Source: Petrimonas sp. IBARAKI
GTDB taxonomy: Bacteria; Bacteroidota; Bacteroidia; Bacteroidales; Dysgonomonadaceae
Direction: 5' to 3'
Assembly: GCA_002356435.2 (NCBI GenBank)
Contig: AP018040.2
Coordinates: 1,240,001 to 1,304,000, forward strand
Length of the DNA stretch: 64,000 bases
Part shown: positions 24,485 to 40,725 of the stretch, in pieces
How positions within the stretch are numbered: position 1 is the stretch's first letter
Layout of the letters: each line of letters opens with the position of its first letter
Translations under genes and position numbers: made by a program
The notes under the pieces: model-generated
The model's input: the letters and a program-made list of their open reading frames with translations, nothing else
Told to the model about the DNA's origin: nothing
The model's database searches: none

Positions 24485-24559
24485 CGGGGTGTAGCACAGT
24501 CCGGTTAGTGTACCTGCTTTGGGAGCAGGGGGTCGCGAGTTCGAATCCCGCCACCCCGA
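24485..24559 (+). tRNA. tRNA-Pro (anticodon TGG)
   Basis: 75 nt without an encoded CCA. The acceptor pairs CGGGGTG with CACCCCG, with discriminator A. The anticodon stem CCTGC/GCAGG carries the loop TTTGGGA with anticodon TGG, and the T-loop is TTCGAAT. The 3' part from 24515 is the left attachment core of the integrated element, which rebuilds an intact tRNA at this end. Confidence 0.96.
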
Positions 24560-24560
24560 C
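24515..24560 (+). repeat. attL core (46-bp direct repeat with 40680-40725)
   Basis: These 46 bases, from the anticodon stem to one base past the discriminator, recur without mismatch at 40680-40725. The bases on both sides differ, so the repeat is exact and defines the element ends. Confidence 0.95.
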
Positions 24561-24571
24561 GTTGAAAATCA

Positions 24572-24605
24572 AACACTTATCTGAATATTCAGGTAAGTGT
24601 TTTTT
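24572..24605 (+). terminator. terminator after tRNA-Pro, carried by the element
   Basis: A near-perfect 15-bp inverted repeat (AACACTTATCTGAAT / ATTCAGGTAAGTGTT, one T-G pair) followed by a T-run at 24600-24605. It lies 12 bp inside the element, so the tRNA now uses an element-encoded terminator. Confidence 0.8.
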
Positions 24606-24835
24606 CTTTAGAACACACATTTCACACACGCAATCGGATAGTTTTTATAAGCTATCGAGATCATATAACTCCGTCTCGCTTCATACCTCCGCCCACATTT
24701 GACGCTCTTTTCCATTCCGGTGCGATGGTCAATAAAAAATTATTGTCGTTCTGAGAGCCTTAAAATGGGCCGTTTCTTAACAGACGAAATGTTTGACCCC
24801 AAAATAGAACGGTTATTATCTGGAAAAAAAATTAC

Positions 24836-25129
24836 TCACATCCCATCAATAATTTTATCAATCACATCTAAATCATCCCCATCCAATACCCAGTCAGGAA
24901 ATTCAATGTTTGTACTATTCTCTTTGTTGTATTTTTCAATTTCTTTTTTTGCCTCTATGCCTTTCTCCATTGCTTCAATAGCCTTTCTACCTGTAGCCCG
25001 GAGGAGCTCCTTCATTTCTTCAATGTCAGATACGCGCTCCCCGGCCTCATCTCTTTCAATCAGCTTTTGCAAATCTTCTTCGCTCATCGTTGATTTAAAT
25101 TTTTCTTTGTAATAGTCCATGTCGTTCAT
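24836..25129 (-). CDS. hypothetical acidic helical protein (element)
   Basis: 97 aa, strongly charged and helical, with heptad-like stretches between residues 15 and 70 (EEDLQKLIERDEAGERVSDIEEMKELL) and an acidic C-terminus (WVLDGDDLDVIDKIIDG). I do not recognise the family. It is the last gene before attL and is separated from the next gene upstream by 260 bp that contains three stem-loops. The codon usage looks like that of its element neighbours. Confidence 0.6.
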   Translation of the reverse strand: MNDMDYYKEKFKSTMSEEDLQKLIERDEAGERVSDIEEMKELLRATGRKAIEAMEKGIEAKKEIEKYNKENSTNIEFPDWVLDGDDLDVIDKIIDGM

Positions 25130-25389
25130 ATTTAATAAATTATTAATGTCATTTAAATGGCCGCCCCTATTTTCACAAACGGAAGCGGTAAGTATTCAAT
25201 TATACGAAAATCAAATAGATGTTGTGCGGATTACGGAAATTTTGTTCCGGGAGGATGAACAAACATACCTCCCGGCTTACTTGAAGTGCGCCATTCGGCT
25301 ACTCTTTCCCGTCGTCCGGTTTCGCCTGACTGATGGCGCTCAGTCCAATTTTTAAGCATGTCAAAGATCGAGAGTCTGACGTAAAACCG
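25130..25389. other. structured intergenic region with three stem-loops (element)
   Basis: No gene is visible. Three inverted repeats lie in a row: 25160-25187 (7 bp, 14-nt loop), 25247-25275 (perfect 8-bp CCGGGAGG/CCTCCCGG, 13-nt loop) and 25288-25339 (7-bp GCGCCAT/ATGGCGC arms with a long loop). On the minus strand the loops of the first two contain GTTTGT. None is followed by a T-run, so they are not ordinary terminators. A structured RNA, a packaging site or a replication signal are possible. Confidence 0.5.
25160..25187. repeat. stem-loop with GTTTGTGA loop, copy A
   Basis: Its sequence is 19/23 identical in the core to the stem-loop at 30743-30772 (CCTATTTTCACAAACGG against CCTATTCTCACGAACCG). 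Both keep a GC-rich stem and a 14-nt loop, and both lie upstream of a minus-strand start codon. Confidence 0.55.
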
Positions 25390-25665
25390 TTATATGGCGG
25401 TGCAGCTGACTGATGCCAATAGGTTTTGCGATATCTGGGCTGCCATGAGTTTTAGGATTTCATCCCGCAAACCGTCCAGTTTCTCGATCAGATCTTCTGT
25501 CATAGAATCGACCGCGCTCGCGCCCCAATATTCCTCTACTTGTCTCATAACTAAATCGACACCATTATCGACCATCCGATAGGCCACCAGATAGTATTTT
25601 GTTCCCTCGCTCAACGTGGCGTTTCTCATTTTCTCGGGTTTTATTCTGTTTGTCATTACTTCCAT
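25390..25665 (-). CDS. hypothetical protein (element)
   Basis: 91 aa, two helices around a short beta region (GTKYYLVAYRMVDNGVDLVMRQVEEYWG, then EDLIEKLDGLRDEILKLMAAQI). No family recognised. It is 15 bp downstream of the 116-aa gene and belongs to the six-gene minus-strand set that is divergent from the XRE repressor, so it is probably expressed early and repressed by it. Confidence 0.6.
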   Translation of the reverse strand: MEVMTNRIKPEKMRNATLSEGTKYYLVAYRMVDNGVDLVMRQVEEYWGASAVDSMTEDLIEKLDGLRDEILKLMAAQISQNLLASVSCTAI

Positions 25666-25680
25666 GATTGATATTTTTTT

Positions 25681-26031
25681 TTAAATGTCGTCATCCAGAC
25701 GATACAGGCGTACCGGTGTTTTAATACCATGCTGCTTGTTGTATCGCACTTCATCAAAAGCTCTTTTCCGTTGTTGGCTATGCATCCTGCTCATTTTTCC
25801 AGCCAACTTACTAAGTTCGTTTGCTTTTTTTATCTTTTCATCAAACGAGTTGGCTTCCCTGGACGATAGTTCCGCAAGCTTTTCGCCCAAGGCATCGTAT
25901 TTTGCTTTTGCTTCGAGATACTCCTTATAAAAATCTCTTTTCCCTGCTTCCATAGGTCTGATAATTGGTAGGTGAATAAAATATATGTTGGTTTGTCCTT
26001 TAAGTTCACTCAATGTGGCTTCATTTTTCAT
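25681..26031 (-). CDS. hypothetical coiled-coil protein (element)
   Basis: 116 aa. Residues 35-85 are a long charged helix (FYKEYLEAKAKYDALGEKLAELSS, EKIKKANELSKLAGKMS) likely to form a coiled coil. The C-terminus is basic then acidic (RRYNKQHG-like, ending YRLDDDI). It overlaps the start region of its upstream neighbour by 11 bp, a sign of coupling. No family recognised. Confidence 0.6.
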   Translation of the reverse strand: MKNEATLSELKGQTNIYFIHLPIIRPMEAGKRDFYKEYLEAKAKYDALGEKLAELSSREANSFDEKIKKANELSKLAGKMSRMHSQQRKRAFDEVRYNKQHGIKTPVRLYRLDDDI

Positions 26032-26344
26032 CGTTCACGAGAGAGGATGTTTTGCCTGCTCCCAATAATTTAAGTAGTTCCGGCCGAAACATAAATGTGT
26101 TGAGGTCAGTCGCGGTTTTCTCCAGATCGTTTCTGGTTGACCGGATAAACATTTTAACTTTGAAGAAAGCATCTTTGAGCTCATCCTGGGAGAGGGGAAG
26201 GGTTCCGGTCTCATAGAACGTGCATAGATCCATTATGCCATCCAGCGAGGCCCCATGTTCATAAATTGAAAAATTAAAGTCGTTTGCTTTGGTCATGTAG
26301 GTGTCTACCGTAAATCGCTGATCTTCTTTTAAATTTTGTGTCAT
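26021..26344 (-). CDS. hypothetical protein (element)
   Basis: 107 aa with no motif that I recognise. It is helical with an aromatic N-terminal part (FTVDTYMTKANDFNFSIYEHG) and a central SQDELKDAFFKVKMFIRSTRNDLEKTATDLNTF helix pair. It is 43 bp from the gene upstream and overlaps the next one by 11 bp. Probably an early or regulatory element protein. Confidence 0.6.
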   Translation of the reverse strand: MTQNLKEDQRFTVDTYMTKANDFNFSIYEHGASLDGIMDLCTFYETGTLPLSQDELKDAFFKVKMFIRSTRNDLEKTATDLNTFMFRPELLKLLGAGKTSSLVNDEK

Positions 26345-26387
26345 AAGTCTAAAAAATTAAATGATTAATACTCAATTTCTTTGTTTT

Positions 26388-26699
26388 TCATATTATTTTC
26401 CTTTTGCGTTTTTGAATGTTGTTGAGGTGTCTCGCGATTCTCTGGTCCTTGAGATTGCGTCTTCCGTTGGGATTAGGGGCAGGAGCCTCGGACGCTTCCA
26501 GCAGCTCCCGCATAATCCCCTCCAGTTGACTTGCAAGGTCGATTAGTCTCTCACGAGTTATTCTTTTAGGGCCTTGTATGGTTTCCAGATCTGAAAACTC
26601 CAGCATAGCCTTTACTATTTCATTTTCAATTCTTGCCATGTCCGTGCTCGGCAGGTGTTTTTTCAATACCGATGCCGCGAGGGTCTCTCTATTTTTCAT
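26388..26699 (-). CDS. hypothetical protein with basic tail (element)
   Basis: 103 aa, helical, ending in a strongly basic segment (GRRNLKDQRIARHLNNIQKRKRKII) that could bind nucleic acid. Its ATG overlaps the stop of the 82-aa gene (4 bp). No family recognised; a small DNA- or RNA-binding protein is a reasonable guess. Confidence 0.6.
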   Translation of the reverse strand: MKNRETLAASVLKKHLPSTDMARIENEIVKAMLEFSDLETIQGPKRITRERLIDLASQLEGIMRELLEASEAPAPNPNGRRNLKDQRIARHLNNIQKRKRKII

Positions 26700-26944
26700 C
26701 TCCGTGCTTTTTTAAGATTTAAACCTCTGATGCCGTTAGCGTGTTCTATTCTCCGTAGCTTAACCACCTCGGCATATCCGAAATGGGTGTGCAAGGATCC
26801 TCCCTCCGTCTCCAGCTCCATATAGTCCGGATCGTAGTCGGTGTGGAGTATTCCCACAACTCCGGATATCACGATAAGATCTCCCTTGCGAACAATGGCG
26901 CCGCGTACCTCTGCGTAGTTACCTTGCTTGAATTGCCTGATCAT
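26696..26944 (-). CDS. hypothetical small beta-rich protein (element)
   Basis: 82 aa, predicted beta-barrel-like (GNYAEVRGAIVRKGDLIVISGVVGILHTDYDPDYMELE), similar in style to SH3 or KOW barrels. It is the first gene of the minus-strand set divergent from the XRE repressor. TAGCTTTG at 26992-26999 (minus) is a good -7 box 47 nt before its ATG. Role unknown. Confidence 0.6.
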   Translation of the reverse strand: MIRQFKQGNYAEVRGAIVRKGDLIVISGVVGILHTDYDPDYMELETEGGSLHTHFGYAEVVKLRRIEHANGIRGLNLKKARR

Positions 26945-27124
26945 GGTTGAGCCCTCCTGTTATTAGTGCACATGAATGTCGTTTATTTTCACAAAGCTAC
27001 ATTATAATATCGTATTATCAAAATATAGATACATCAAAATGCAGTTTTTAATTTTATTTAACGATACCATAATGTAGTATTGCAGTTTTAATGCGTAACT
27101 TTGAAGCCGTAAAACATAGTACAA
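26945..27124. promoter_or_regulatory. divergent control region of the element repressor
   Basis: Minus promoter: CAAAGCTA at 26992-26999 (TAGCTTTG on the minus strand). Plus promoter: TAACTTTG at 27096-27103, 22 nt before the repressor ATG. Two related AT-rich dyads lie between or beside them: ATAATATCGTATTAT at 27004-27018 and AATGTAGTATT at 27071-27081 (8 of 11 core bases shared). They are candidate operators for the XRE protein. Confidence 0.55.
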
Positions 27125-27391
27125 ATGCTAAAAATCAAGGAAATAGCAAGAGAAAAAGGATACACCATGCAGCAGCTCGCCGATAAGCTGGGAATTGTCA
27201 GGGATACTTTGACCAGGCAGGCACACGGTAACCCTACAATAAGTACGCTTCAAAAGATCGCCGAAGTACTCGAGGTCGATATTACGGAGCTGTTCGATAC
27301 TGCGGCCATTGAGAAGTATAAAAAAATCACTGCTATCAACTGTCCGAAGTGCGGGGAAGAAATCCGTTTAAGCATTGAAGAAGAGAACTGA
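27125..27391 (+). CDS. XRE-family HTH regulator, likely element repressor
   Basis: 88 aa. Residues 1-58 are a typical HTH_3 fold (IKEIAREKGYTMQQLADKLGIVRDTLTRQAHGNPTISTLQKIAEVLEVDITELF), and the C-terminus has one CPKCG knuckle (residues 76-80), a pattern common in Bacteroidetes regulators. It is the only plus-strand gene of the element and lies between the late-type genes and the six-gene set, like a lysogeny repressor. It has its own promoter and a strong terminator. Confidence 0.88.
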   Translation: MLKIKEIAREKGYTMQQLADKLGIVRDTLTRQAHGNPTISTLQKIAEVLEVDITELFDTAAIEKYKKITAINCPKCGEEIRLSIEEEN

Positions 27392-27747: not shown

Positions 27748-28011
27748 TCAATAATTACTTCCAACCATCTGAAACGAAAAATCCAGGTTGGCGAGTGATC
27801 CGCTGCCGTTCCTAACCTCCACCGTAAAATATGTGGAATACATTCCTGTAACAACGCATCTTTGACCACTTACCAAAGGTTGACAAAAAACACAGTAATC
27901 TGCCGTCTTTATCAAACCATTAGGCCTTTGAAAATCTATTCTCATAATCCCTGTGGATATCCATTGGTCGGCAACTATATCTATTGCCCCCCATTTATTT
28001 ACTACTGCCAT
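27748..28011 (-). CDS. small protein, possibly tail-tip/fibre-like (element)
   Basis: 87 aa, beta-rich (WISTGIMRIDFQRP, ADYCVFCQPLVSGQRCVVTGMYSTYFTVEVRNG, LDFSFQMVG). The rhythm resembles the C-terminal beta-sandwich of phage fibres and H-type lectins, where a short protein trimer forms the tip. Similarity is by pattern only. It is the last gene of the late-type set, where fibre genes often lie, 2 bp after the 174-aa gene. Confidence 0.5.
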   Translation of the reverse strand: MAVVNKWGAIDIVADQWISTGIMRIDFQRPNGLIKTADYCVFCQPLVSGQRCVVTGMYSTYFTVEVRNGSGSLANLDFSFQMVGSNY

Positions 28012-28013
28012 GA

Positions 28014-28538
28014 CTATATATATTGCTCTGTTGCAAAATAACTTCCCGTAGCCTGCTGGTTAAGTTCCCAGTCCGTCAGGAATCGGTTGAAGCTGTCATA
28101 CAATGGTTGGACTGCCTCCGACTGTTCGGCATCGGCTTTTTCCATTGCCATCTTATAAGCTCCCACAATGTTAAGTACTTCTCCGTGGCTGTATAGAATA
28201 GCCTCCGTAGGTATGTTGTTGTAAGGCTGGAATAACATCTCAATATTGCAGTCTGAATCCGGCAATAGGGAAAAATGTTCCGTAATCTCTGTGGGTAGCT
28301 CTGTTTTCGGCTTGTTTGCCTTCCACACACGATACTCGGATAATCCAGTCAAAACACTTTCAACCGTGGAATATTCTATCGCTTCGGGATCTAACAGTCC
28401 CTTGGCTACAATTAGGCTTGCCTCAAAATGAGAGACAAACGTATCGTTGGAAAATATGCAGGCAGGGTAAAAATCACCCCGTTCGTTGATAGTCTGCTGC
28501 ATTGTGATCTTTGCTTGTAATGGTATAATTCTTGCCAT
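28014..28538 (-). CDS. hypothetical phage-type protein (element)
   Basis: 174 aa, no motif that I recognise. The N-terminus is beta-rich (IIPLQAKITMQQTINERGDFYPACIFS) and the C-terminus helical (NIVGAYKMAMEKADAEQSEAVQPLYDSFNRFLTDWEL). It lies between the tape measure and the last gene, the position of distal tail or baseplate genes in prophages. Possibly a tail accessory protein. Confidence 0.6.
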   Translation of the reverse strand: MARIIPLQAKITMQQTINERGDFYPACIFSNDTFVSHFEASLIVAKGLLDPEAIEYSTVESVLTGLSEYRVWKANKPKTELPTEITEHFSLLPDSDCNIEMLFQPYNNIPTEAILYSHGEVLNIVGAYKMAMEKADAEQSEAVQPLYDSFNRFLTDWELNQQATGSYFATEQYI

Positions 28539-28577: not shown

Positions 28578-30392
28578 TCATAGTCTGCTTCTTTTTCTCG
28601 CTTCCTGCTCCAATATGCCGACTAACCGGCTGCCTTCTATCTCGAATCTTACATTACCGTTCGTGCCGCTCTGCAACGCCCCGGCAAGGTTGTTCTGCTG
28701 CGCCCTGTTAAGGATCAGCTCGCCGGAGTTGACCCGGGCGAGCATCTTGTCGCCTGAATAGGAGTTTCCCGGTACGATCCCGCCGAACTCGAACTTCGGT
28801 ATGTTCATCAGCGCCCCCATGATCGAGAGAACTGCACCCGCCGCCAGGATAGGGCCGACGATGGGGATGCCCGCCACTGATCCCGCGCCATCCGCCGCCG
28901 CTTTTGCCGCGCTTGCGTTGGCCAACGCCAATATCGCCGGAATGGCTTGCCCCGCTGTCGTCACTACGTTTGCACCCCACTGCAGCCATTTGCCTGCACT
29001 CTCGCCAAGTATGTCACTCATGCCGTACATCACATTGCCAATACCGGTAAAAGAATCGATAAGGTTGGCGTTTTGCGCGGCAATCTGACTTACGTAATCG
29101 GAATAAGACGAAACCTCCCCGAAAGGCTTTATCTTATCATTCATATCAATGTGCGGCAAGTTGATTTTGCCGTCAAGGTCAGTAAATTTGCTGTCTACAT
29201 TGGCGAATTTGCCGACCGGTTTGATATTTCCGACTCCTCCCGGGTATTTGAACCCTATCTCGATAAACGCCTTTTTTGCCTCCAACACTTTGATCAGTTC
29301 GTCGGCGGACCGTCTCGCCTCGTCTGTTGTGGCGTTGAGGAAGTTCTTCCGGGCGGTGGAGATCTGTTTTTCCAGTTCTGCGATTGATCCTGTGGGTACG
29401 ATATCGACTTTCGGGGATCCTTCTCCTCCCCGTTCTTTTCCATACCGGCGTTCGACCGTGGCCTGTTGACGCTTCAGCGATGCGATATTATTCTCGATGG
29501 TTCGCCCCTGCTGCCGTAACTGCACGATCTCCGTTCTTTTCGTGTCGCTGATCAGCTCGTTGATACGATAATACTTCTCCAGTTCGGCATTATTCGCTTT
29601 TAGACTCTCGAGTTGTTCCTTCGCGACCTTGGCGTCTTCAGTCGGCATATTTCTAACCGAGGTTCCCTCACCAAAGCCGTATATTTTAGTTTCCATCTTC
29701 GCCGCCCTTTGGGATAATTCCGTTCTCTTGTCCATGTAGTTGTAGAACTCGGTATCGTCGTGCATAGAGATCCCCTGCAGGTAACGCTTCACGTCCTCCT
29801 CAGTCACGTTGTCCATCTGTGCCTCGCGCCTTGCTGTTGCAACTACCGCGGTCGCGGTTTGAGCAATAATCCCCTTACTCTTTCTCTCCAGGAGAGCGAT
29901 GTACTTCTTGTTCTCTTCCATCATCGCCTTACGATCGGCCAACGGCGTGTTTGTGTCGTAGATGGCCGCTATATTCTCATTGATCTTTGTGCGATACTCG
30001 TTTTCCACATCCGTCCATCCTGCCTGCATGTCGCCCAGCGTGTCCATAGCATCGTAGAGTTCCCGCGCCCGCGCGATGGCTTTGTCAAAACCTCTCAGCA
30101 TGTTGCCGAAGTCGCCTATTGCGATGGAGTCGAAAAAGCTGTCTACGACGGCCTTACCCTGTTCCATTTTGGAGTTGAACCGGTCGGTATTCCCCTGCGT
30201 GGAGTCGATGATCTTGCGGAATGCCTCGGTAGCGCTGGCAGCGACCCCGAAGGCCCCCGCCATTTTAGTGATCATCCCCGTCCCGGCTCCGACGAATTCT
30301 TTAAAATGAGAAAGTTGGTTTTTACTTTTTTCAAGGGTATTATTGAACTGCTTATCGTCCATTAATATCCGGGTCATTAAATCTGCTGCCAT
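28578..30392 (-). CDS. phage tail tape measure protein
   Basis: 604 aa from the ATG at 30392; an upstream TTG would add nine residues and overlaps the previous gene. Long helical segments (residues 15-330), a glycine/alanine-rich hydrophobic stretch (about 490-535; WLQWGANVVTTAGQAIPAILALANASAAKAA, GIPIVGPILAAGAVLSIMGALM), and the typical C-terminal FEFGGIVPGNSYSGDKMLARVNSGELILN. The protein normally sets tail length inside the tube; at about 0.15 nm per residue this one would fit a tail near 90 nm (inference). It is notable that no tail-tube gene is visible in the element. Confidence 0.88.
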   Translation of the reverse strand: MAADLMTRILMDDKQFNNTLEKSKNQLSHFKEFVGAGTGMITKMAGAFGVAASATEAFRKIIDSTQGNTDRFNSKMEQGKAVVDSFFDSIAIGDFGNMLRGFDKAIARARELYDAMDTLGDMQAGWTDVENEYRTKINENIAAIYDTNTPLADRKAMMEENKKYIALLERKSKGIIAQTATAVVATARREAQMDNVTEEDVKRYLQGISMHDDTEFYNYMDKRTELSQRAAKMETKIYGFGEGTSVRNMPTEDAKVAKEQLESLKANNAELEKYYRINELISDTKRTEIVQLRQQGRTIENNIASLKRQQATVERRYGKERGGEGSPKVDIVPTGSIAELEKQISTARKNFLNATTDEARRSADELIKVLEAKKAFIEIGFKYPGGVGNIKPVGKFANVDSKFTDLDGKINLPHIDMNDKIKPFGEVSSYSDYVSQIAAQNANLIDSFTGIGNVMYGMSDILGESAGKWLQWGANVVTTAGQAIPAILALANASAAKAAADGAGSVAGIPIVGPILAAGAVLSIMGALMNIPKFEFGGIVPGNSYSGDKMLARVNSGELILNRAQQNNLAGALQSGTNGNVRFEIEGSRLVGILEQEARKRSRL

Positions 30393-30415
30393 AAATAATA
30401 AATTTAAATTTGTGT

Positions 30416-30715
30416 TCAATTCAAGCCCGGGGCGCCTATCGCCGCCTCGAACTGATCCCTGTCAAAGGGTTTGATTATCACCCAGAACGCACCGTTCACG
30501 AACACCACATCACAATCTAAAATGGCGGAAGCCTTATAATAAACGTGAAGCGCATGCACGAGCGTTTTGAAATTTAGCTCACCTGTGACCCGTGATGGAT
30601 CCTGCATCAAATTCCTTGTGATCGTCTCGCTGAGCGTCACCGCCTGCACCTGGTTTAGGAGTTTTTCGAAAGTCTTGCCGATATACTCAGCCATACCTGT
30701 CTGATATCTTATCAT
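30416..30715 (-). CDS. hypothetical protein upstream of the tape measure (element)
   Basis: 99 aa with helix-strand pattern (EYIGKTFEKLLNQVQAVTLSETITRNL, then CDVVFVNGAFWVIIKPFDRDQF). No family recognised. Its position between capsid and tape measure is where head-completion, tail-terminator or tail-tube genes usually lie, but the size and strand pattern do not let me choose. A stem-loop (30743-30772) precedes it by 28 bp. Confidence 0.6.
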   Translation of the reverse strand: MIRYQTGMAEYIGKTFEKLLNQVQAVTLSETITRNLMQDPSRVTGELNFKTLVHALHVYYKASAILDCDVVFVNGAFWVIIKPFDRDQFEAAIGAPGLN

Positions 30716-31790: not shown

Positions 31791-32090
31791 TTAAACTGCT
31801 TCTGCTTCGTTTTCCATCTGCTCTCTCGTCCAGGCGATCGCCTGTTTCATCTGCTGCTGACTGATAGCATCCACGAAGTCATCAAACGTAATCGTTGCTT
31901 CTTGCGTTGCTCCATGTGCTCCCGAGAGCAACATCGCGTACAGGAATATCACCCAGTCGGACGTACACGCCAGTGTAAAGGGTTTGTCGGATAGTTTCTC
32001 GAACAGCACGATTGCACGGATGTTATACTTTAACTGATAGCTTTTGCCGGCCAGATCCATGGCCCCGTTTGAAAATTGTTTTGTCTTCAT
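31791..32090 (-). CDS. tail-assembly-chaperone-like small protein (element)
   Basis: 99 aa: beta start (LAGKSYQLKYNIRAIVLFEKLSDKPF) then helices with a TFDDFVDAISQQQM segment. This layout (a Lys-Tyr-x-Ile-x-Ala start followed by an EEF/DDF helix) is common in phage tail assembly chaperones of Bacteroidetes and gene-transfer agents. The call is by pattern; the position between protease and capsid is unusual for such a gene. Confidence 0.5.
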   Translation of the reverse strand: MKTKQFSNGAMDLAGKSYQLKYNIRAIVLFEKLSDKPFTLACTSDWVIFLYAMLLSGAHGATQEATITFDDFVDAISQQQMKQAIAWTREQMENEAEAV

Positions 32091-32095: not shown

Positions 32096-32683
32096 TTAAT
32101 TTATTTGGTCAATCCATTTATTTAATTCTGCATAATACTCGGCCATCTCTTCGGCTTTTGCCTTCCGGTCTATTGCCCGGGCTGAGACGGTTGTCTTCGA
32201 ATAGGCGGCATCGTACACCGGCGAAACATCGAAGAGCTCATCGAATTTCTTGATCGTCCGCCTGGTCTTTGTGCCTGCCTTTTCCCATACATCATCCTTA
32301 ACCGTGAATGCAAAGGAGGACTCCGTCACTTCACCACGTTTCAGGTATTCCAGCAGTTCGTCGCCCAATGCCGTGTTGGGGGCGTCGAACGAATAGAGTA
32401 GCCCTTTGCTGTCAATCTCCAGCTTTAATGTTCCCTTGCCGGATTTGCACCTTGCAAGGATGCCCCGGCTCGAGTCGTGGTTGAGCAGAGCGAATACATT
32501 GCTTTTTTCGATCACGCCATCCAGGGCGCCGGGGATAATAACCTCCTCGAAATCCAGCGCATCGCTGGGTGTGTTGAAAAGAAGGGCGTACCCCTCGACC
32601 CTCCGGCCGGATTCCTTTCCTTTGCTGCTGATTCTTACTTCGGAGCCGGTCAGCCTGATTTCAGTTTCTGTTTTTTTGTTCAT
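32096..32683 (-). CDS. HK97-family prohead protease
   Basis: 195 aa. Catalytic regions are visible: FALLNHDSSRGILAR (His) and GEVTESSFAFTV (Ser), within the serine protease fold of the family. It matures the capsid by cutting its N-terminal scaffold. It is 5 bp upstream of the chaperone-like gene and two genes upstream of the capsid gene. Its presence argues that capsids of this element are self-encoded and not only borrowed. Confidence 0.92.
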   Translation of the reverse strand: MNKKTETEIRLTGSEVRISSKGKESGRRVEGYALLFNTPSDALDFEEVIIPGALDGVIEKSNVFALLNHDSSRGILARCKSGKGTLKLEIDSKGLLYSFDAPNTALGDELLEYLKRGEVTESSFAFTVKDDVWEKAGTKTRRTIKKFDELFDVSPVYDAAYSKTTVSARAIDRKAKAEEMAEYYAELNKWIDQIN

Positions 32684-32860
32684 CGTTTAAAAAATTAATA
32701 TTATCATTTTGATACTTTTTAACTAAAAAATGGATTTTTGAAAAAATGCCGTGCGTGTCGAGTCTGGTTTGTGGGGGTTTCAGAGCCTTAATCCTCTAAA
32801 ATTTTACCCCATACCCCCATCGCTAAAAAATTCTACTATCATTTTGTCAATACCGGTATA

Positions 32861-33346
32861 TCATTTTGTTTTTTCATTGTCGCTCCCGAAAGTAACCGGA
32901 TCAATCTCACCGCGGGCGAGTATCTGCCGCTCCAGGGCCTTATCCATCTTTGCCGACCACATCAGATTATCGAATCTGTACATGAATAGATCGATGATTT
33001 CTTCCTCGCTCGCACCCTTTACCTGTTCATCCCGGATTACATGTTCATAAGATTCATGCAGTACGTCCTCACTATTGTAACCTCTGAAGGTCCTGCAGGG
33101 TGTTTCCTTGATCATTGCCATCTCCCGGAGTCTATCCCAGTTCTTCGCCAGGATATCACTGCACCGCTGGTCGGGCTCTATAGCGAGGACCTTCTTAGGC
33201 ACTAAACGCTTCTTAGGCACTGGCCTGCGAAGTTCCTCGGCCAATCTCTCAACCACATTGGCGAGATCCACCTGTACTCTCTCCGGTTTTAGATGACCGA
33301 ACAGGCGCTCCCTCAACTGATCCTCTTTTGTTTTCTTTTTCGCCAT
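32861..33346 (-). CDS. sigma-region-2-like protein (element)
   Basis: 161 aa. Residues 95-140 (RTFRGYNSEDVLHESYEHVIRD, then EEEIIDLFMYRFDNLMW) resemble region 2.1-2.3 of ECF sigma factors (NxEDLLHETYxxV), but no region 4 follows. The N-terminal 60 residues are basic. Just before the capsid genes, such a protein could switch on late transcription, or it could be a small terminase-like DNA-binding protein. The similarity is a short pattern only. Confidence 0.5.
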   Translation of the reverse strand: MAKKKTKEDQLRERLFGHLKPERVQVDLANVVERLAEELRRPVPKKRLVPKKVLAIEPDQRCSDILAKNWDRLREMAMIKETPCRTFRGYNSEDVLHESYEHVIRDEQVKGASEEEIIDLFMYRFDNLMWSAKMDKALERQILARGEIDPVTFGSDNEKTK

Positions 33347-34143: not shown

Positions 34144-34653
34144 TTAAAATAGCTGTCTCAGACTCCCGCAGTCCCGTATTTCATTCATTGCCCGAAGGGT
34201 GGCGGTTGTAAGCCCGATAGTCTCCCGGGTGAGAGGGTCCTTGTGACTTTTAAAACCGCGTCGAGCTGCTTCATATCGATAGCGAGTCGCGTCATAAAGA
34301 TCTACTTCGCCTTTCCGGAATGCGGTCCAACCATCGTAAAAGCCGTCGCGGTACCGTTTCTCCCATAACTTGGCGATCTCGGACTCCAGCCCTTTCCACT
34401 TTGCAATCTCGATCATACATACATCTGAAATATGTCTGGCAGGAAAATAATCGATCACTGGCTGGCCGGTGATCGGGTCAATCTGGCGGCTCCAGTCTTC
34501 AGCCTCACCATCGCGGACGAACTGCGCCGCGTGCCCCGGCGTGATCAGCCTCTGCGCTGCGAAAAATACAGCCTGGGCAAAACCCCTGCAATACGCGCGC
34601 TCCCCTTTTTGCATCACAATGCGGCGAATAGTACTAATCTGTTTCATATCCAT
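34144..34653 (-). CDS. hypothetical protein (element)
   Basis: 169 aa from the ATG at 34653 (a TTG one codon upstream is less likely). It is basic with many Arg and aromatic residues (ERAYCRGFAQAVFFAAQRLITPGHAAQFV, RYRDGFYDGWTAFRKGEVDLYDATRYRYEAARRGF). No family recognised. It overlaps the 78-aa gene by 20 bp, a sign of translational coupling. Confidence 0.6.
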   Translation of the reverse strand: MDMKQISTIRRIVMQKGERAYCRGFAQAVFFAAQRLITPGHAAQFVRDGEAEDWSRQIDPITGQPVIDYFPARHISDVCMIEIAKWKGLESEIAKLWEKRYRDGFYDGWTAFRKGEVDLYDATRYRYEAARRGFKSHKDPLTRETIGLTTATLRAMNEIRDCGSLRQLF

Positions 34654-34870
34654 CAATTTTTAATTTTCGTTTGTTGCAATTGTTGCAGGTGTCTTCTTCG
34701 CGTGCCGGGTCAGACCGGCGCGACGCTCTTTTTCGTTTCACTCTCACGTCGTCATCGACCTTTGAAAAGATGAAGATGTGACCGGTTCGTGATTCCCAAA
34801 TGTCATTCCACTTCGTTTCCTCAACGTGGGTCAATGCCAGTTTTTCAATCCATTTTTCCTTCAGTCCCAT
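34634..34870 (-). CDS. hypothetical small protein with CxxC (element)
   Basis: 78 aa. The N-terminal half has Trp and beta strands (KWNDIWESRTGHIFIFSK), the C-terminal half is basic with one CNNC pair (VKRKRASRRSD..TCNNCNKRK). It is the first gene downstream of the repeat-rich gap that follows the primase gene. The function is unknown; DNA binding near the putative origin is conceivable. Confidence 0.55.
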   Translation of the reverse strand: MGLKEKWIEKLALTHVEETKWNDIWESRTGHIFIFSKVDDDVRVKRKRASRRSDPAREEDTCNNCNKRKLKIDGYETD

Positions 34871-35163
34871 AATTGTATCCTCCTATTTTAAATTATTATT
34901 ATTATTCAAAACCACAAAACCACATAAAAATCGCTGCTTATACATTATATCCGGTTTAAAGCATTATTACGTATACTATTCAATAAAAATCTCTTTATTT
35001 CAATACAGTCTTAAAAAATCTTTGTGGTTTTGTGGTTATGGTGTTTACGTATTTGATTATGAGAACATAACCGACCACATAACCGACCACATTTTGCATT
35101 TTGATTTGTGGTTTTGTGGTTTAAAATCGGCTTTCTAAAACCACAAACCCCAAAAACCACAAA
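34871..35163. other. iteron-rich, AT-rich region, candidate replication origin (element)
   Basis: About nine copies of an octamer near ACCACAAA lie here or just inside the primase end, in both orientations: 34911 and 34919 (direct, 8-bp period), 35021 and 35029 (inverted), 35105 and 35113 (inverted), 35140 and 35157 (direct), plus one at 35178. A 12-bp tandem repeat CCGACCACATAA/CCGACCACATTT occupies 35071-35094. Between 34925 and 35020 the sequence is very AT-rich. Iterons flanking an AT-rich part next to the replicase gene is the layout of satellite and plasmid origins. Confidence 0.65.
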
Positions 35164-37701
35164 TCATTTTAGCCCCTTTTGTGGTTTTCTTCTAAACGCT
35201 CTCACAGAAATCCCGCGGTAACTTGTATCGTATTGCTCCCAGTTTTCCATGCTCCGCATGATCTTCCGAATTCTCTTTGCGGGGATAGTGTCAATGACTT
35301 TGAACTCCCTCAGCGCATAACGGTATAGCTGCTCGACGGTCACCTTATCACGAAGCACCCAGCCCGTCTTGTCGGTGGCGAAGTCTTCGGACACTCCCGG
35401 GTTCTCCCAGTAGTCGGGTGGCGCCGGCGTTTCAAGAAAAGCGGCAATCGTGTCCTCCCAGGAGTCTTTTTCACGGTGTTGCTCCTGCATGGCATTTGCG
35501 AACGCCTCCAGCTTCGGATCATCCAGGTAGAGAGCTTCACCGGCTTTGTAGATCTGAACCGCTTCGGCCCATATCTGGTCAACCTCCACGGGCAGATCAT
35601 CTTTCACGCTCTTTTTGGGTTTCTGCTTATTAGTTTCAACCGGCCAGAATCTCCGGTTTCCAGTACTGTCGGAGAGGAAGTCTATATTGTTTGTGGTGCC
35701 GATGAAAATACACTGCCTCGGAAAATATCCCTTCTCTTCCTTGTACGCAAGCCTCGCCTCATCCTGGCGGGTGGATATAAAGCTCTTGATCGCGTCGGCG
35801 TTCTTTCCGTACAGAGCCGCCAGTTCCGGTATCTCCATAATCCACACACCCAGCAGCTGCTCGATGTCCCGCTTATCTCCCCGCCCGGATAGGCTGAAAT
35901 TGTCACTGCTCCATCCACGGCCTTCATGATCGGCATACCCAAGGATCTGCACCAGCATGCTTTTGCCGATGCCCTGAGCGCCCACTATCACCAGAACGTA
36001 GTCGAACTTACACCCTGGTCGGAAAACCCGTGCCGCTGCAGCCGTCAAAGTTTTTCGGGTCACCGCTCTGGTGTACGGATTGTCCTCAGCCCCCAGGTAA
36101 TCGATTATCAATGTGTCCACCCGATTGGTACCATCCCATACCAATGAGTTCAGATGATCCCTTACAGGGTGGTAACGCTGGCGGGAAAAAACGTTGCGTA
36201 ACGCTACCTTGATTACACGTTCTGACGTTATTCCCCAATACTTCTCCATGTATGCCAAAAGTTCGGCATAGTCAAAATCTGACCAGATTCCCAATTCAGT
36301 TTTTGACTTAGGCCATGGAGGCACACCTGTAACGTCATTGGTATGGGAGAAATCATTGTGCGATAACCGTGCAGATTTCAGCCGCTGGTCGTTGGTGAGT
36401 ATCAGTTCAGTATTCTCGATAGTCTGTGAATAGGTTCCATTTTTTTCTATCTTCAGCTGCGTGATCCACTCGTCGTTTTCCCCTTCATCTCCAACCGGAT
36501 CCTCGGAAGCGTCGCCGAAGTCGCCCAGTGCGGACTGCAGACGCTCCCTGCCCAGTGTCATTTTCACCTTTTCGTCATTGGTTGCAAACTCCTGCATGGC
36601 AATGTATGAGGGTATTTTTGGGGCTGGCGTCCCGGGTTTTGCATTCTCATCCAGCTGACCGAACAGGTGGATCCTGACCAGGTCAAACGCATTATGCAGC
36701 TTGCCTCCGCCGGCAGGGTCGGTACCATGGTGCGAATAGGCCCACTTGTCCTCATATGTGATCAAGCCGCCGGCGGTAGATCCTGCTTGGTAGGTATATC
36801 TGTTTTCTCCAATCTCACATTTTTGGTAAATATCGGACAGGTGTGTCTCGATAGCTTCATGGATGTCATAGGAACGGCAGAACGCTCCTACAATACCGTG
36901 CTTCCCAACTGGATCACCCGCTTTTTTCTTCTCTCTTGTAATCACGCTCTCAGTGCGGGAGCTTACAGGCCACTGTGCGGGATCCTGCCAGTTATCATAT
37001 TCTGCAAGAATTGCATCGGGATACAGCCACTTACCGTCCTGATACCTGAAATAGAATTCCCCATCAACGGATGTGGATGGCCAGTACATAAGGCGTTCGG
37101 CTTCATACGTAGTATCATCGAAGGCATCAATTCCGATAGCAAAGGCTACTTTCCGGGATATCGCTTCGTATTCTGTCGCGCTCACTCGCCGACTCAACGG
37201 GATCACAAGCCTCAGCCTGTTCCTCTCAGGGGTATGCTTGTGCGTCGAGTACACGCACGCCGCGCAGTCGTACATCAGCCCGAAGGTGTCCCAAAGATCT
37301 GAGCCCGGGGTATCGGCATCCAATGTTAATATACTTCTCACTGATACATTTCCCGCTTTACGACGGCCGTCCTTCAATATTCCACCAACGAAGCCCCCAA
37401 CATCTTTAATATCATCCTGCTTGGTTTTCGGCATCGAGGTGTATTCAGCCTGTGTTTCCTTGGTGCGCGTGGTCTCGGATAACTTAACGGCCAATTTCGA
37501 CCAGAGCATCTCCCCGTTATTCCAATGCACCGCTTTTCTCGAGTCAGCGGTTGCAATTGACAAAATCCCATCGTGCATTATCTTCATATCGTTTTTTTGT
37601 TTTTCACGTAAAGGCATGACGGATCTCACCCCAACTCGCACAGGGCGGGAGAGTGTCACCTCATTAAGAACTTCACCTGTGGAATCTGATCTGTTCATCA
37701 T
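35164..37701 (-). CDS. primase-helicase, BT4734-like/VirE family (element replicase)
   Basis: 845 aa. The N-terminal third looks like an AEP-type primase (LTLDAD at 126-130 for metal binding, HKHTPERNRLRLVIPLSR at 154-171). The C-terminal half is the VirE superfamily 3-like helicase: Walker A GAQGIGKS (574-581), Walker B-like VWIMEIPE (619-626), sensor IFIGTTN (665-671) and an Arg-finger region GNRRFWPV (681-688). It should start and unwind replication of the excised element. It lies 13 bp downstream of the excisionase-like gene and its 3' end runs into the repeat-rich region, as in satellites where replicase and origin are adjacent. Confidence 0.92.
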   Translation of the reverse strand: MMNRSDSTGEVLNEVTLSRPVRVGVRSVMPLREKQKNDMKIMHDGILSIATADSRKAVHWNNGEMLWSKLAVKLSETTRTKETQAEYTSMPKTKQDDIKDVGGFVGGILKDGRRKAGNVSVRSILTLDADTPGSDLWDTFGLMYDCAACVYSTHKHTPERNRLRLVIPLSRRVSATEYEAISRKVAFAIGIDAFDDTTYEAERLMYWPSTSVDGEFYFRYQDGKWLYPDAILAEYDNWQDPAQWPVSSRTESVITREKKKAGDPVGKHGIVGAFCRSYDIHEAIETHLSDIYQKCEIGENRYTYQAGSTAGGLITYEDKWAYSHHGTDPAGGGKLHNAFDLVRIHLFGQLDENAKPGTPAPKIPSYIAMQEFATNDEKVKMTLGRERLQSALGDFGDASEDPVGDEGENDEWITQLKIEKNGTYSQTIENTELILTNDQRLKSARLSHNDFSHTNDVTGVPPWPKSKTELGIWSDFDYAELLAYMEKYWGITSERVIKVALRNVFSRQRYHPVRDHLNSLVWDGTNRVDTLIIDYLGAEDNPYTRAVTRKTLTAAAARVFRPGCKFDYVLVIVGAQGIGKSMLVQILGYADHEGRGWSSDNFSLSGRGDKRDIEQLLGVWIMEIPELAALYGKNADAIKSFISTRQDEARLAYKEEKGYFPRQCIFIGTTNNIDFLSDSTGNRRFWPVETNKQKPKKSVKDDLPVEVDQIWAEAVQIYKAGEALYLDDPKLEAFANAMQEQHREKDSWEDTIAAFLETPAPPDYWENPGVSEDFATDKTGWVLRDKVTVEQLYRYALREFKVIDTIPAKRIRKIMRSMENWEQYDTSYRGISVRAFRRKPQKGLK

Positions 37702-37714
37702 CTTTTGGATTTTT

Positions 37715-38044: not shown

Positions 38045-38070
38045 ATGGTTATTATTATTATTTTCTGTTG

Positions 38071-38101: not shown

Positions 38102-38116
38102 CTGATTATCAATGCG

Positions 38117-38143: not shown

Positions 38144-38173
38144 ACTTGTTTCACGGTCGCTTTAGGTCGCTTT
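38118..38173. repeat. GGTCGCTTT repeats (three direct, one inverted)
   Basis: Direct copies start at 38134, 38155 and 38165; an inverted copy is at 38118-38126. Spacings of 21 and 10 bp put the direct copies on one DNA face. They lie about 20-70 bp upstream of the promoter of the HTH/primase operon. Confidence 0.65.
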
Positions 38174-38185
38174 TAGCTTAAATAC

Positions 38186-39046
38186 TTAATCTCCAATGGT
38201 CGCAAATTTTTTGAGTATTCCATACAGTTCTTCAAATATCGGGTCGTTTTCGAGCTTGGCCGGGTTATTTTTAATTGCGGCGCCAGAGATTAGTTCTCCT
38301 TTATGTGTAAAAAATGTTTGGCAAACTTTTGGTATATCTTTTTCTTTCAGATTATTACTTTTAAGCCCGATTGTCGGTTCTGGATATTTATCAATACCTA
38401 TTGGAGCTTGCCCCCAAATTAACACCCGGAGCGTTATTTTATCACCCGGCAGCCAGTTAACGGGTTTGAAGTTTCCGGGATCGATCCCCTCACCAGTGAA
38501 CATCGCTTTAAAGTCCTTTAAGTCACCCTCCATGAAACTCATTTTTCCAATAGGTTTTACTTCTCGAACGCGAGTCAGCTCGTTAAACAAAAATTCAATT
38601 TGTCTCTCTGTTAATACCCGTAGGAATTTACCGCCAATTCTCGGGTTATCGCCCGCAATAGCTTTTAATAGTATCGGATTCTTGTCAATGTACGTAAACA
38701 CCCACGCCCAGTCACCAACATATTCCGAAGTTAAATTTATACCGAGCGTGTTTTTTACTTCCTCTATATCGGACGCAATGCGCTTCGAGATGTTCACTAT
38801 CTCTTTTTTAACCGATTCCTGGTCCTTTGGTTTCTGGCCCTCCGGTATCTCAAAACTATCCCGAAAATCACGAATTGCACATAAATGTTTATATTTTCCT
38901 ATATGTTTTTCGATAGATTTCTCCCACAATTTAACTCTGAGTTGTTCATCCGGTACCAAAGCAAGGAATGCGATCAGATCATCGATATCTCCGTAAAGAA
39001 CTTTTCCCATCCCCCTGAGGGGTTCATTGTTGCTAATTACTGTCAT
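38186..39046 (-). CDS. hypothetical 286-aa protein beside the integrase
   Basis: 286 aa, soluble, no signal or membrane segment. The N-terminal half is helical and charged (residues 15-120), the C-terminal half mixed (NWLPGDKITLRVLIWGQAPIGIDKYPEP). Its codon use is more AT-rich than that of the neighbouring primase and integrase. I do not recognise the family. The place between integrase and replication genes is a frequent cargo site in satellites, where anti-phage or helper-interference genes lie, but nothing in the protein itself proves such a role. Confidence 0.6.
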   Translation of the reverse strand: MTVISNNEPLRGMGKVLYGDIDDLIAFLALVPDEQLRVKLWEKSIEKHIGKYKHLCAIRDFRDSFEIPEGQKPKDQESVKKEIVNISKRIASDIEEVKNTLGINLTSEYVGDWAWVFTYIDKNPILLKAIAGDNPRIGGKFLRVLTERQIEFLFNELTRVREVKPIGKMSFMEGDLKDFKAMFTGEGIDPGNFKPVNWLPGDKITLRVLIWGQAPIGIDKYPEPTIGLKSNNLKEKDIPKVCQTFFTHKGELISGAAIKNNPAKLENDPIFEELYGILKKFATIGD

Positions 39047-39057
39047 CTTATATCGCT

Positions 39058-40485
39058 TTAAAAGTTGAAATTCATTAAGTTTTCACTGTAGTTCTTTTCC
39101 GGGTTGAGCAGTTGCGAGTTTATCTCGCGCCGTTTCTTCGGTGTTATGTTGACATAGCCGGCTGTCACGTCCTTTTTCGTGCTGTGGCCGACCATCTGTT
39201 TAACCACGATCGGGTTGGTCAGTTCCTCCCCGACCAGGTGCGTAATGTAGCTGTTCCGGGTGTACGATGTAGTCAGATCCTCGGTAAACCCCAGCTGTGC
39301 CGCTATCGCTTTTAACGCCGTATTTATCGGAGCCAGCGCCAGGCTTATCGCGCCCTTTATCCTGGCCTCGTTCCTTGCTGTAGGTTCGATGCCGTTCAGG
39401 AACGGAAAAATATAACCTCCTTGGTCTTTATTACCGTGCCTGGTGATGATCTCCATCATCGGTGGAAGGATCGGGGCGAATATCGGCGACTGGTTCTTCA
39501 TCTTCGCGATAGTTTTCTTCCGGTAGAACTGAATTTCGCCGGTGGCCGGGTTGATATCCTTGTACCGTAACCTGCAAAGATCCCCGAAGTTCAGCCCGTT
39601 GCAGTAAAACATGAAAACAAAAACGTCCCGTGCCAGTGTCAGGGCGGGCTGCTCTGTTTCAAAGAGCTCGATCCGCCATATCGTTTTTATGGGAAGCGCT
39701 ATGCTCCTTCGCCCTCCTTCGGGGATGAGGTACTTCCCGCCGCTTTCTCCGAAGGGGTATCTGTTTCCGGATAGATAGGGCTTCCCGGCTTCTTTGTTAT
39801 TCACCAGTGCCCGCAGTGTCCGCATGTACATGCCTATCGAGTTGTCGGAGAGTTCTATCTCTCTCCAGAATTCCTCACAGTCAGATAAGAATTTCGGGGT
39901 CAGCTCGCTGAACTTGATTTCCGCGGATAAATTCAGTACTTCTCTTCCGGCGGTTTTATGTTTGTCCGCAATACATCTTTCAATGAACTCAAGCTTCCGC
40001 TCGGCACCTTTCAGACCTTTATAGTATTTGAATCGTTCCAATGCGGTGAACGCGGTACGATAAACTCCGGCATTTCCGATTTGATTCCTGGTCTTTAGCT
40101 GTTCAATCCTCTCGCGAAATGCGGCATTCACGCTATTGCCGTCTTTGATCTCTCCGGTCAGGGCCATGTTTAGTGCATCGAAAGAGAAATCGTCTTTCAG
40201 CTCGTTGATGGAGGGTTTCAATTTCTCTTCGAAATAGCCCACCAGGTCGTCGCGGATCTCTTTCATGTGGCCCAACTTCGTTTTATAGTCGAAATCCTTT
40301 AGATCCGCAGCTTCGAAACGCTCCCACTCGTCGACGGTCATTTTATGGCCCGCAGGGTAGTAAACCCGCTGCCGGTTGTACGTCACGCAGAATTTTAGCG
40401 GGCAAGGACTCTGCGGATCCTTCTTTCTGACGTCTCTCATCAGGTATGCCGTTATGCCTGACTGTGTAGAATGATATAGCTTCAT
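39058..40485 (-). CDS. int: tyrosine recombinase, integrase of the tRNA-Pro element
   Basis: 475 aa from the ATG at 40485 (MKLYHSTQSG); the longer frame starts in the leader. The N-terminal arm-binding and SAM-like core-binding domains are followed by the catalytic domain. Box I reads NGLNFGDLCRLRYKDI, so the usual box-I Arg of GLR is replaced by Asn, as other Bacteroidetes integrases such as IntDOT also lack it. Box II reads SYTRNSYITHL (Arg kept, His changed), with QMVGHSTKK and nucleophile Tyr in TAGYVNI. It faces attR 194 bp away. TATCTTTG (minus) at 40552-40559 is its likely -7 box. Confidence 0.92.
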   Translation of the reverse strand: MKLYHSTQSGITAYLMRDVRKKDPQSPCPLKFCVTYNRQRVYYPAGHKMTVDEWERFEAADLKDFDYKTKLGHMKEIRDDLVGYFEEKLKPSINELKDDFSFDALNMALTGEIKDGNSVNAAFRERIEQLKTRNQIGNAGVYRTAFTALERFKYYKGLKGAERKLEFIERCIADKHKTAGREVLNLSAEIKFSELTPKFLSDCEEFWREIELSDNSIGMYMRTLRALVNNKEAGKPYLSGNRYPFGESGGKYLIPEGGRRSIALPIKTIWRIELFETEQPALTLARDVFVFMFYCNGLNFGDLCRLRYKDINPATGEIQFYRKKTIAKMKNQSPIFAPILPPMMEIITRHGNKDQGGYIFPFLNGIEPTARNEARIKGAISLALAPINTALKAIAAQLGFTEDLTTSYTRNSYITHLVGEELTNPIVVKQMVGHSTKKDVTAGYVNITPKKRREINSQLLNPEKNYSENLMNFNF

Positions 40486-40501
40486 TTTTTTAACTTTTTT
40501 C

Positions 40502-40515
40502 CGACCCCCTGCTCC
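40502..40515 (-). repeat. inverted 14-bp partial copy of the att core in the integrase leader
   Basis: On the minus strand this is GGAGCAGGGGGTCG, identical to 24522-24535 and 40687-40700 inside the att core. It lies 17 bp before the integrase start codon, within the mRNA leader. Confidence 0.7.
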
Positions 40516-40577
40516 GGGGCATTTGGTCAAATGGAACACACAAATCACACACAAAGATAGCAAATAATTGAAAATAA

Positions 40578-40661
40578 CGGAAAAATACGGAAAATATTTT
40601 TATATTTATGTAGTTTGATTTTCAGATATTTACAATCATTTCGGAAAAGTGCGGAAAAGTG
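40578..40661. repeat. CGGAAAA decamer pairs, candidate integrase arm sites
   Basis: Four 10-mers CGGAAAA-n3 in two tandem pairs with exact 10-bp period: 40578-40597 and 40642-40661 (CGGAAAAGTG twice). They lie 19-102 bp from attR inside the element, where arm-type sites of tyrosine recombinases are expected. Confidence 0.6.
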
Positions 40662-40679
40662 TTAAAAATCCAGTTTAAG

Positions 40680-40725
40680 TGCTTTGGGAGCAGGGGGTCG
40701 CGAGTTCGAATCCCGCCACCCCGAC
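40680..40725 (+). repeat. attR core (3' fragment of tRNA-Pro)
   Basis: An exact 46-bp copy of 24515-24560. It holds the anticodon loop, variable region, T-arm and 3' acceptor strand but no 5' half, so it is not a functional tRNA. It marks the right end of the element. Confidence 0.95.

Follow-up and report, generated by a model that had tools for sequence, protein, structure and literature searches.

The stretch of DNA analysed here (the window) comprises 64 kb, bases 1,240,001-1,304,000, of the single-contig 3.69-Mb genome of Petrimonas sp. IBARAKI. The host belongs to the family Dysgonomonadaceae, order Bacteroidales, and its relatives with named records are metagenome-assembled genomes (MAGs) of Proteiniphilum. 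An element with its own capsid and tape measure genes occupies window positions 24515-40725 in a tRNA-Pro gene, the inserted unit being 16,165 bp long. Coordinates are window positions unless preceded by a locus name. The two att copies, 24515-24560 and 40680-40725, are identical in 46 of 46 bases and are situated within a 61-nucleotide repeat of 90% identity, in agreement with a previous reading of the sequence alone (the sequence-only reading), which had the element closed by an exact 46-bp repeat in tRNA-Pro. The empty site is found in genome G049, labelled as the same species. The 440-bp joined flanks match it at 440 of 440 positions with the element absent, and the wider flanks match at 99.6% over 24,565 bp and 99.7% over 2,087 bp, meeting exactly. 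The repeats and the empty site show site-specific integration of the kind known from phage satellites. In G049 the tRNA-Pro region is present twice, 54 kb apart (G049:C1:2445567-2500133, L074-L076), one copy being the empty site; this arrangement is consistent with a direct duplication of the chromosome.

The reading frames of the element are open and tightly packed. The att copies are listed first, followed by the genes and noncoding features in their order from the integrase; aa denotes amino acids, HTH a helix-turn-helix and E an expectation value.

24485-24560, plus strand: tRNA-Pro(TGG), where the element is integrated; the left att copy, 24515-24560, consists of the 3' 46 bp of the gene
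40680-40725, plus strand: second att copy, exact 46 bp
39058-40563, minus strand: tyrosine integrase, 501 aa (PF13102, PF00589)
38186-39046, minus strand: p286, function-unassigned protein, 39-84% identical in L002, L005 and L022
37715-38101, minus strand: HTH or excisionase-type protein (PF12728, phrog_66)
35164-37701, minus strand: VapE-like primase-helicase, 845 aa (PF05272, E 2.5e-72), with a homologue in the full prophage L019
34871-35163, no strand: noncoding stretch separating p78 from VapE, rich in TTTGTGGTT repeats, both direct and inverted
34634-34870, minus strand: p78, present in 6 of 6 related satellite loci
34144-34656, minus strand: p170, present in 6 of 6 related satellite loci at 25-99% identity
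33409-34119, minus strand: p236, present in 6 of 6 related satellite loci, absent from the fetched full phages
32861-33346, minus strand: p161, with homologues directly upstream of the HNH gene in full phages
32684-32860, no strand: 177-bp noncoding gap, candidate helper cos (cohesive-end) site
32096-32683, minus strand: HK97-type prohead protease (PF04586, E 1.1e-33; TIGR01543)
31791-32090, minus strand: p99a, tail-assembly chaperone (gpG-like), without the second-frame T domain of the phage version
30796-31770, minus strand: major capsid protein (MCP), HK97 type (PF05065, E 2.8e-22; TIGR01554)
30416-30715, minus strand: p99b, between MCP and the tape measure gene
28578-30419, minus strand: tape measure protein (TMP), about 603 aa from the likely start (phrog_24676, E 4e-11)
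28014-28538, minus strand: p174, without a homologue in the other fetched loci
27748-28011, minus strand: p87, without a convincing homologue in the other fetched loci
27125-27391, plus strand: HTH repressor (phrog_8, E 1.7e-10), divergent from the small left-end genes
24836-26944, minus strand: six small genes, p82, p103, p107, p116, p91 and p97

The mobility and replication genes proposed earlier (an integrase, an excisionase-like HTH protein, a VirE primase-helicase and a repressor) were recovered in Pfam and PHROGs searches, the primase-helicase being VapE-like. The four proposed virion genes were recovered as well: the prohead protease, the capsid protein and the tape measure by profiles, and the chaperone mainly by homology to phages. 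Of the 22 proteins called, 20 were scanned with Pfam (all but p82 and the repressor), 20 with PHROGs (all but VapE and the integrase) and 10 with NCBIfam. These scans gave no convincing match to a terminase, portal, connector, tail tube, sheath, baseplate or lysis protein. The only match of this type, to phrog_309 (small terminase subunit, TerS; 0.002), falls on the HTH of the repressor, which fits many repressor families better. Only the open reading frames (ORFs) of the integrase, p286, VapE, MCP and TMP exceed 250 aa on the coding strand, and a typical full large terminase subunit (TerL) or portal would thus not fit in any unassigned ORF. Profile comparison of TerS of the candidate helper phages described below with p161, p170, p236 and p99b gave hhalign probabilities of 0.09-0.25% on shallow alignments; a divergent TerS is only weakly excluded. 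With this reservation for TerS, the profile scans of the unassigned genes, which found no terminase, portal or tail-tube fold, and the ORF lengths agree with the gene absences listed in the sequence-only reading. The element thus appears to lack the genes needed to complete a virion, as a phage satellite does.

The same module is carried by seven loci: the window, L002 to L005 (IMG/VR contigs of 9.5-14.7 kb), L018 (Proteiniphilum MAG SM3-B12.2, also L026) and L022 (UBA4977, also L027). In L004, L005 and L022 the sequence stops short of the end of the module or element. One gene order, from p78 to TMP, is retained at all seven, allowing for the loss of p99a, an extra gene of 120-139 aa in four loci, and contig ends. 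There are three integrase types: that of the window, 99% identical in L005 and L022; that of L002, 34% identical to the window enzyme; and a different 445-aa enzyme in L003, L004 and L018. There are also two replication modules, an AAA protein and a primase-type protein replacing VapE in L003, L004 and L018 (profiles for L003 only). L018 is complete, 13.9 kb long and bounded by 27-bp repeats in tRNA-Ser, while L005 and L022 start inside the tRNA-Pro att core; the sequence-only reading had proposed looking for the gene set at tRNA genes of Bacteroidales genomes, and it is found at these two. Terminal repeats were found neither in six loci (L002-L006 and L017, L006 being part of a contig) nor in the contig of L037. 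The MCP, p161 and TMP genes of L022 look broken, which is due to runs of N.

The ratio of nonsynonymous to synonymous substitution rates (dN/dS), calculated against the window for the related loci other than L022, is 0.06-0.09 for the protease, 0.10-0.25 for MCP, 0.10-0.12 for p99b, 0.12-0.15 for TMP, 0.14-0.19 for p161 and 0.12-0.27 for p236, suggesting that these six genes are mostly under purifying selection. Four genes give less clear values. For p170, which is highly divergent in L003, L004 and L018, the ratio is 0.53-0.60 in comparison with these loci, and the 0.52 of p99a in comparison with L005 is based on very few substitutions. The repressor has 0.39-0.46 in comparison with L003 and L018, and p286 about 0.29; VapE is saturated against L002. 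In trees of the protease (7 rows), MCP (6) and TMP (5) the satellites form one fully supported group, whose nearest phages are L036-L038. The trees were calculated without L019 (a near-copy of L037 with runs of N), those of MCP and TMP without L022 (runs of N), and those of the protease and TMP without L024 (no clean ORF recovered); L005 has no TMP. An MCP match is present in 8 of 101 genomes of the family and is close in three (the host, G057 and G079). p99b is present in 1 of 393 genomes of the order, the host's own, a sample evidently without G057 and G079. The satellite family therefore looks narrow.

These comparisons bear on the possibility, ranked as the main alternative in the sequence-only reading, that the element is a decayed or domesticated prophage remnant that has lost its terminase, portal and tail genes and is immobile. 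The trees derive the virion genes from a full-phage lineage, and p99a is missing from L003 and L018 through an apparent internal deletion that left its ends behind, both of which would suit a remnant. However, one layout is found at seven loci with different integrases and att sites, the same-species empty site is exact, the frames were confirmed to be open and tightly packed, and dN/dS in the module is low. Apart from the p99a deletion, the module genes of the related copies are open (dN/dS mostly 0.06-0.27). No relative has the region within a larger prophage; two copies have att repeats at their ends, each pair in a different tRNA gene. A remnant is highly improbable on this evidence.

The full phages closest to the element in their virion proteins are L036, L037, L038 and L019, all from the same bacterial family (protease 64-68%, MCP 54% and TMP 46-48% identical). 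The chaperone p99a is 45-47% identical in L036-L038 and 40% in L019, where the sequence is partly N. In contrast to the element, L038 encodes TerS (phrog_83), TerL (phrog_9), a portal (phrog_12), two connectors (Ad1 and Hc1), a tail terminator and a major tail (tube) protein. It also has a GH19-type enzyme, a possible lysin. The contig of L037 is 44,002 bp long and its integrase ends near 37.0 kb, so that the phage measures at least about 37 kb. No resident helper was detected in the host genome with PF03237, PF03354 (the TerL class of L036-L038-type phages), the portal family PF04860 or the L019 TerL protein (0 of 1 each); the three families were found in 6, 3 and 4 of 14 control genomes, respectively, and the L019 TerL query had no positive control. 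In genome G057 a satellite (contig 17) occurs together with a full prophage that has the shared site described below (contig 41).

Two genes are situated between TerL and the portal in L036 (L036:2124-4117) and L038 (L038:2220-4219); the first has glycosyltransferase matches just below the Pfam cut-offs and the second has none. The extra satellite gene of 120-139 aa (L002:6180-6542, L003:5976-6395, L018:7776-8198, also L004) is absent from the window, L005 and L022. Its product resembles the N-terminal part of a collagen-repeat protein of L038 (L038:19777-21186) at 31-37% identity (E 4e-12 and 7e-18) and, more weakly, of L037; the collagen match (PF01391) is just under the cut-off. It looks like a further borrowed part, perhaps a virion-attachment domain without its fibre.

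The strongest evidence for what appears to be borrowed packaging, and one that was out of reach of the sequence-only reading, is the noncoding gap at 32684-32860, between p161 and the protease. Over 158 bp it matches the gap between HNH and TerS of L037 and L019 at 94.9%, and over 101 bp the region before TerS of L038 at 93%; L036 does not extend that far. In comparison with L037, 24 of 96 fourfold-degenerate sites are identical in MCP, 22 of 57 in the protease and 62 of 136 in TMP (p99a, with 9 sites, was not used). The coding DNA is thus near saturation, in contrast to the gap. Three copies of the decamer CAAAATGAYA are present in the entire window, all of them at the gap, with spacings of 22 and 135 and the first copy overlapping the end of p161; L037 has three copies at identical spacing. 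An exact 27-base core was found in six contigs of a collection described as holding about 2.9 million viral contigs: four satellites (L002, L003, L004, L005) and two phages (L037, L038).

In the phages L019, L020, L021 and L032 the gap is situated between HNH and TerS. HNH (PF01844) was confirmed in these four and in the contig of L038, and TerS (PF05119 or phrog_83) in L019, L020, L032 and L038, that of L021 being placed by alignment only. A weaker GC-rich core aligns at the equivalent place in L020, L021 and L032; blastn detects it in L032 (73% over 84 bp) and L023 (73% over 82 bp), and L020 and L021 rest on alignment. The gap was matched in 11 of 101 genomes of the family: the host, G057, G079, G021 (the contig of L023) and, over 24-68 bp, G017, G032, G043, G053, G073, G089 and G090. 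The contig of L038 has a GIY-YIG endonuclease gene between HNH and TerS (L073:5624-6850), perhaps a homing gene inserted at the packaging site. In HK97-type phages cos is located between HNH and TerS. The position of the gap in the phages therefore suggests that it is cos. What the element has is a near-identical copy of the HNH-TerS gap of candidate helpers; cleavage within it is a prediction.

The gap might instead be a late-operon control region bound by a phage regulator, the satellite being packaged elsewhere, for instance by headful from pac. It heads the structural operon after p161 in the satellite and directly precedes TerS in the phages, and the repeated decamers could bind a regulator. 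This is nevertheless rather unlikely, given the place of the gap between HNH and TerS, the GC-rich core recognisable at the equivalent place in L020, L021 and L032, and the absence, in the same search, of any other noncoding satellite stretch matching phages of the L036-L038 and L019 type. The two functions are not mutually exclusive.

The satellite MCP is 324 aa long (354 aa in L018, which has a 30-residue insertion), compared with 403-419 aa in 13 of 15 full-phage loci. In the other two, L024 and L025, the recovered MCP ORFs are 337 and 385 aa long and keep the N-terminal part. In the alignment all seven satellite MCPs start 73 residues later than that of L019, the MCPs of L005 and L022 being cut or containing N but sharing this start. 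The satellite MCP thus lacks about 73 residues of the N-terminal scaffold (delta) domain, of which a short remainder may be left; L019, L036, L037 and L038 all have the full domain. No hidden delta domain fits upstream, because the MCP gene is preceded by 20 bp and then p99a, or by 66 bp in L003. A shortened delta domain in an HK97-fold capsid homologue is also described for SaPIbov5, a cos-type Staphylococcus aureus pathogenicity island (SaPI), where the capsid homologue Ccm occupies the pentamer positions and changes the shell to T=4 (PMC5052747, PMC8569155). Satellites of 16.2 and 13.9 kb, beside a phage L037 of at least 37 kb, would suit a T=4 shell beside a T=7 one.

The tape measure was compared among four satellites (the window, L002, L003 and L018) and five phages (L036, L037, L038, L017 and L023), leaving aside L004 (the same as L003), L005, L022, L019, L024 and the phages with long TMPs, L006, L020, L029 and L030. 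Over its C-terminal 105 residues the window TMP shows 95, 90 and 92% identity to L036, L037 and L038, compared with 83, 72 and 70% to the sister satellites L002, L003 and L018. The DNA of this end is 78-85% identical to that of L036, L037 and L038. The TMP end of L002 is 82, 77 and 85% identical to the same three phages, compared with 66% to L003 and L018; that of L003 is 75, 72 and 75% identical to them, and 72 and 66% to the window and L002. In residues 100-300 the relation is the opposite, the window being 77-82% identical to its sister satellites and 20-23% to L036-L038. The protein is thus a mosaic, its end resembling the phages and its middle being specific to the satellites. This reversal, an end nearer to the phages than to its own kin, appears to be the unusual feature of the protein. 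The C-terminus of a siphophage tape measure is the tip-proximal end, and this is the appearance expected of a satellite rod that docks on the tail tip of a phage.

The profile match of p99a is weak (phrog_2115, 0.0012); the protein is 45-47% identical to the product of the gene in the chaperone position of L036-L038. The phage chaperone (L036:9324-9922, also L037 and L038) has a second reading frame following an A-rich run, consistent with a -1 programmed frameshift. Such a second frame is expected of a gpG/gpGT pair. The satellite p99a has neither the A-rich stretch nor the second frame. p99b was considered as a displaced T domain of the phage chaperone and was rejected by eye.

Together, these comparisons indicate that the element is probably a helper-dependent phage satellite of Dysgonomonadaceae, of the cos type, with a small hybrid head, a hybrid tail and a borrowed motor, portal, tube and lysis. 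Upon infection by the helper phage, or its induction, the satellite would excise and replicate with its own VapE module. Using the shared site as cos, the phage TerS and TerL would package unit-length satellite DNA by way of the phage portal. The recipient shell would contain the satellite MCP, matured by the satellite protease, and its size would tend to be reduced by the short delta domain, in the manner of Ccm in SaPIbov5. The satellite TMP and chaperone would nucleate a tail built from phage tube, terminator, tip and fibres, with the phage-like C-terminus of TMP docking on the phage tail tip, and lysis would be supplied by the phage. The sequence-only reading, in which a mobile satellite supplies shell and tail ruler itself and borrows the motor, has come through each of the checks that might have overturned it and appears well founded.

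A number of observations weigh against this interpretation. The TMPs of the distant phages L036 and L017 are 48% identical at the end and 20% in the middle, so that part of the contrast between end and middle is ordinary. TMP lengths are nearly equal (600-603 and 611 aa), and no shortening of the tail is therefore expected with L036-L038. The chaperone is not always needed, since p99a is deleted in L003 and L018. L038 retains no more of the site than its right part and one decamer, with the GIY-YIG gene separating HNH from the gap, and the gap of L003 and L018 has diverged in its left half. The shared gap could be a late promoter, which is the main alternative, and the local identities could reflect recombination rather than selection. 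With no helper detected in the host genome, contact must come from infection. IMG/VR contigs, finally, do not prove particles.

The module might also be an interference island, its MCP, protease, chaperone and TMP being expressed to disrupt phage assembly for the benefit of the host, while the element is transferred in particles rarely or not at all. A delta-shortened MCP and a helper-type TMP end would be suited to poisoning assembly, and the expression of Ccm alone is reported to reduce the helper titre 1,000- to 10,000-fold (PMC5052747). However, a helper-type noncoding site and replication genes of its own would be superfluous for poisoning, and the family is present in the host and two Proteiniphilum MAGs at two tRNA sites. 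Interference as the sole function is improbable.

Among known systems, the cos-type SaPIs SaPIbov5 and SaPIbov4 are similar to the element in having a helper cos site, here a candidate one, and a capsid homologue of the HK97 fold with a shortened delta domain. SaPIbov5 is described as being packaged from the helper cos site and using Ccm, and its size of about 14 kb, with helpers of 42-45 kb, is close to the 16.2 and 13.9 kb found here with a phage of at least 37 kb (PMC5052747, PMC8569155). The satellite MCP is 54% identical to the phage MCP, compared with 24% between Ccm and the helper capsid protein in these accounts. The element, in a different phylum, adds its own protease, tail chaperone and tape measure.

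The phage-inducible chromosomal island-like elements (PLEs) of Vibrio cholerae differ from the element in phylum and host. Their capsid-remodelling protein is named TcaP and, to our knowledge, they carry no MCP. Like the element, whose two genes are recognised by sequence, they are described as carrying their own TMP and tail-assembly chaperone, which are used with phage tail parts; these are about 20% identical to those of the phage ICP1, compared with 90-95% between the TMP end of the element and the phage lineage (PMC12987554). PLE is also reported to remodel the stolen capsid with a protein of its own (PMC10945586).

The capsid-forming phage-inducible chromosomal islands (cf-PICIs) share with the element an MCP and head protease of their own, and putative tmp genes are present in some of them (PMC12987554, Extended Data Fig. 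10 legend). As described in PMC10690885, cf-PICIs encode a portal, connectors, TerS, TerL and HNH, none of which was found in the element (the exclusion of TerS being weak); by that description the element is not a cf-PICI. A shell and tail ruler of its own without a motor was not found described in the openly licensed literature, a coverage that does not extend to the original cf-PICI and tycheposon papers. The earlier remark that the combination is not one known from a described satellite family is in keeping with this, but each half has a precedent, Ccm of SaPIbov5 and the TMP and chaperone of PLEs.

Of the satellites used for comparison, SaPI, P4 and PLE redirect the helper capsid and packaging, and cf-PICIs supply head and packaging themselves and take over foreign tails. 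The element instead brings a shell and a tail ruler, with no recognisable motor. It might belong to a separate satellite family that alters head and tail of the virion together, with a delta-shortened MCP and protease, a TMP and chaperone and a copy of the packaging site, the rest being borrowed and TMP serving as an adapter whose docking end tracks the helper; the chances of this are about even. If so, an adapter TMP would let the satellite keep its own tail core while changing partners. What a satellite gains from altering the tail is left as an open question in PMC12987554. It becomes testable here because the element offers two measurable interfaces with one phage lineage, the DNA site and the TMP end. 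This pair of sequence signatures may also reveal satellite-helper pairs in Bacteroidales without prior knowledge of the helper.

The noncoding stretch at 34871-35163, with its TTTGTGGTT repeats, is a candidate replication origin. p286 is possible cargo, and p174 and p87 (27748-28538, after the tape measure), which gave no match in Pfam and PHROGs searches, are possibly recent cargo. p161 is a possible late regulator; Pfam searches with ten members of its family gave matches at chance level only, and PDB profile searches with p161, p236 and p170 yielded nothing usable. The AlphaFold models of p236 and p99b are unusable, with mean pLDDT (predicted local distance difference test) values of 42 and 48, respectively. 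p99b is present in all five related satellite loci that span its region and absent from the fetched full phages. The repressor has homologues in L002, L003, L018 and the phage locus L006. In PADLOC, p97 and p116 matched long Cas profiles and others (E 0.0003-0.008), which was taken as noise; p116 is the only one of the six small left-end genes without a homologue in the fetched loci. Outside the element, window positions 61001-63000, in which no Rfam family reaches gathering scores, have a G+C fraction of 0.545, compared with about 0.42 across most of the window.

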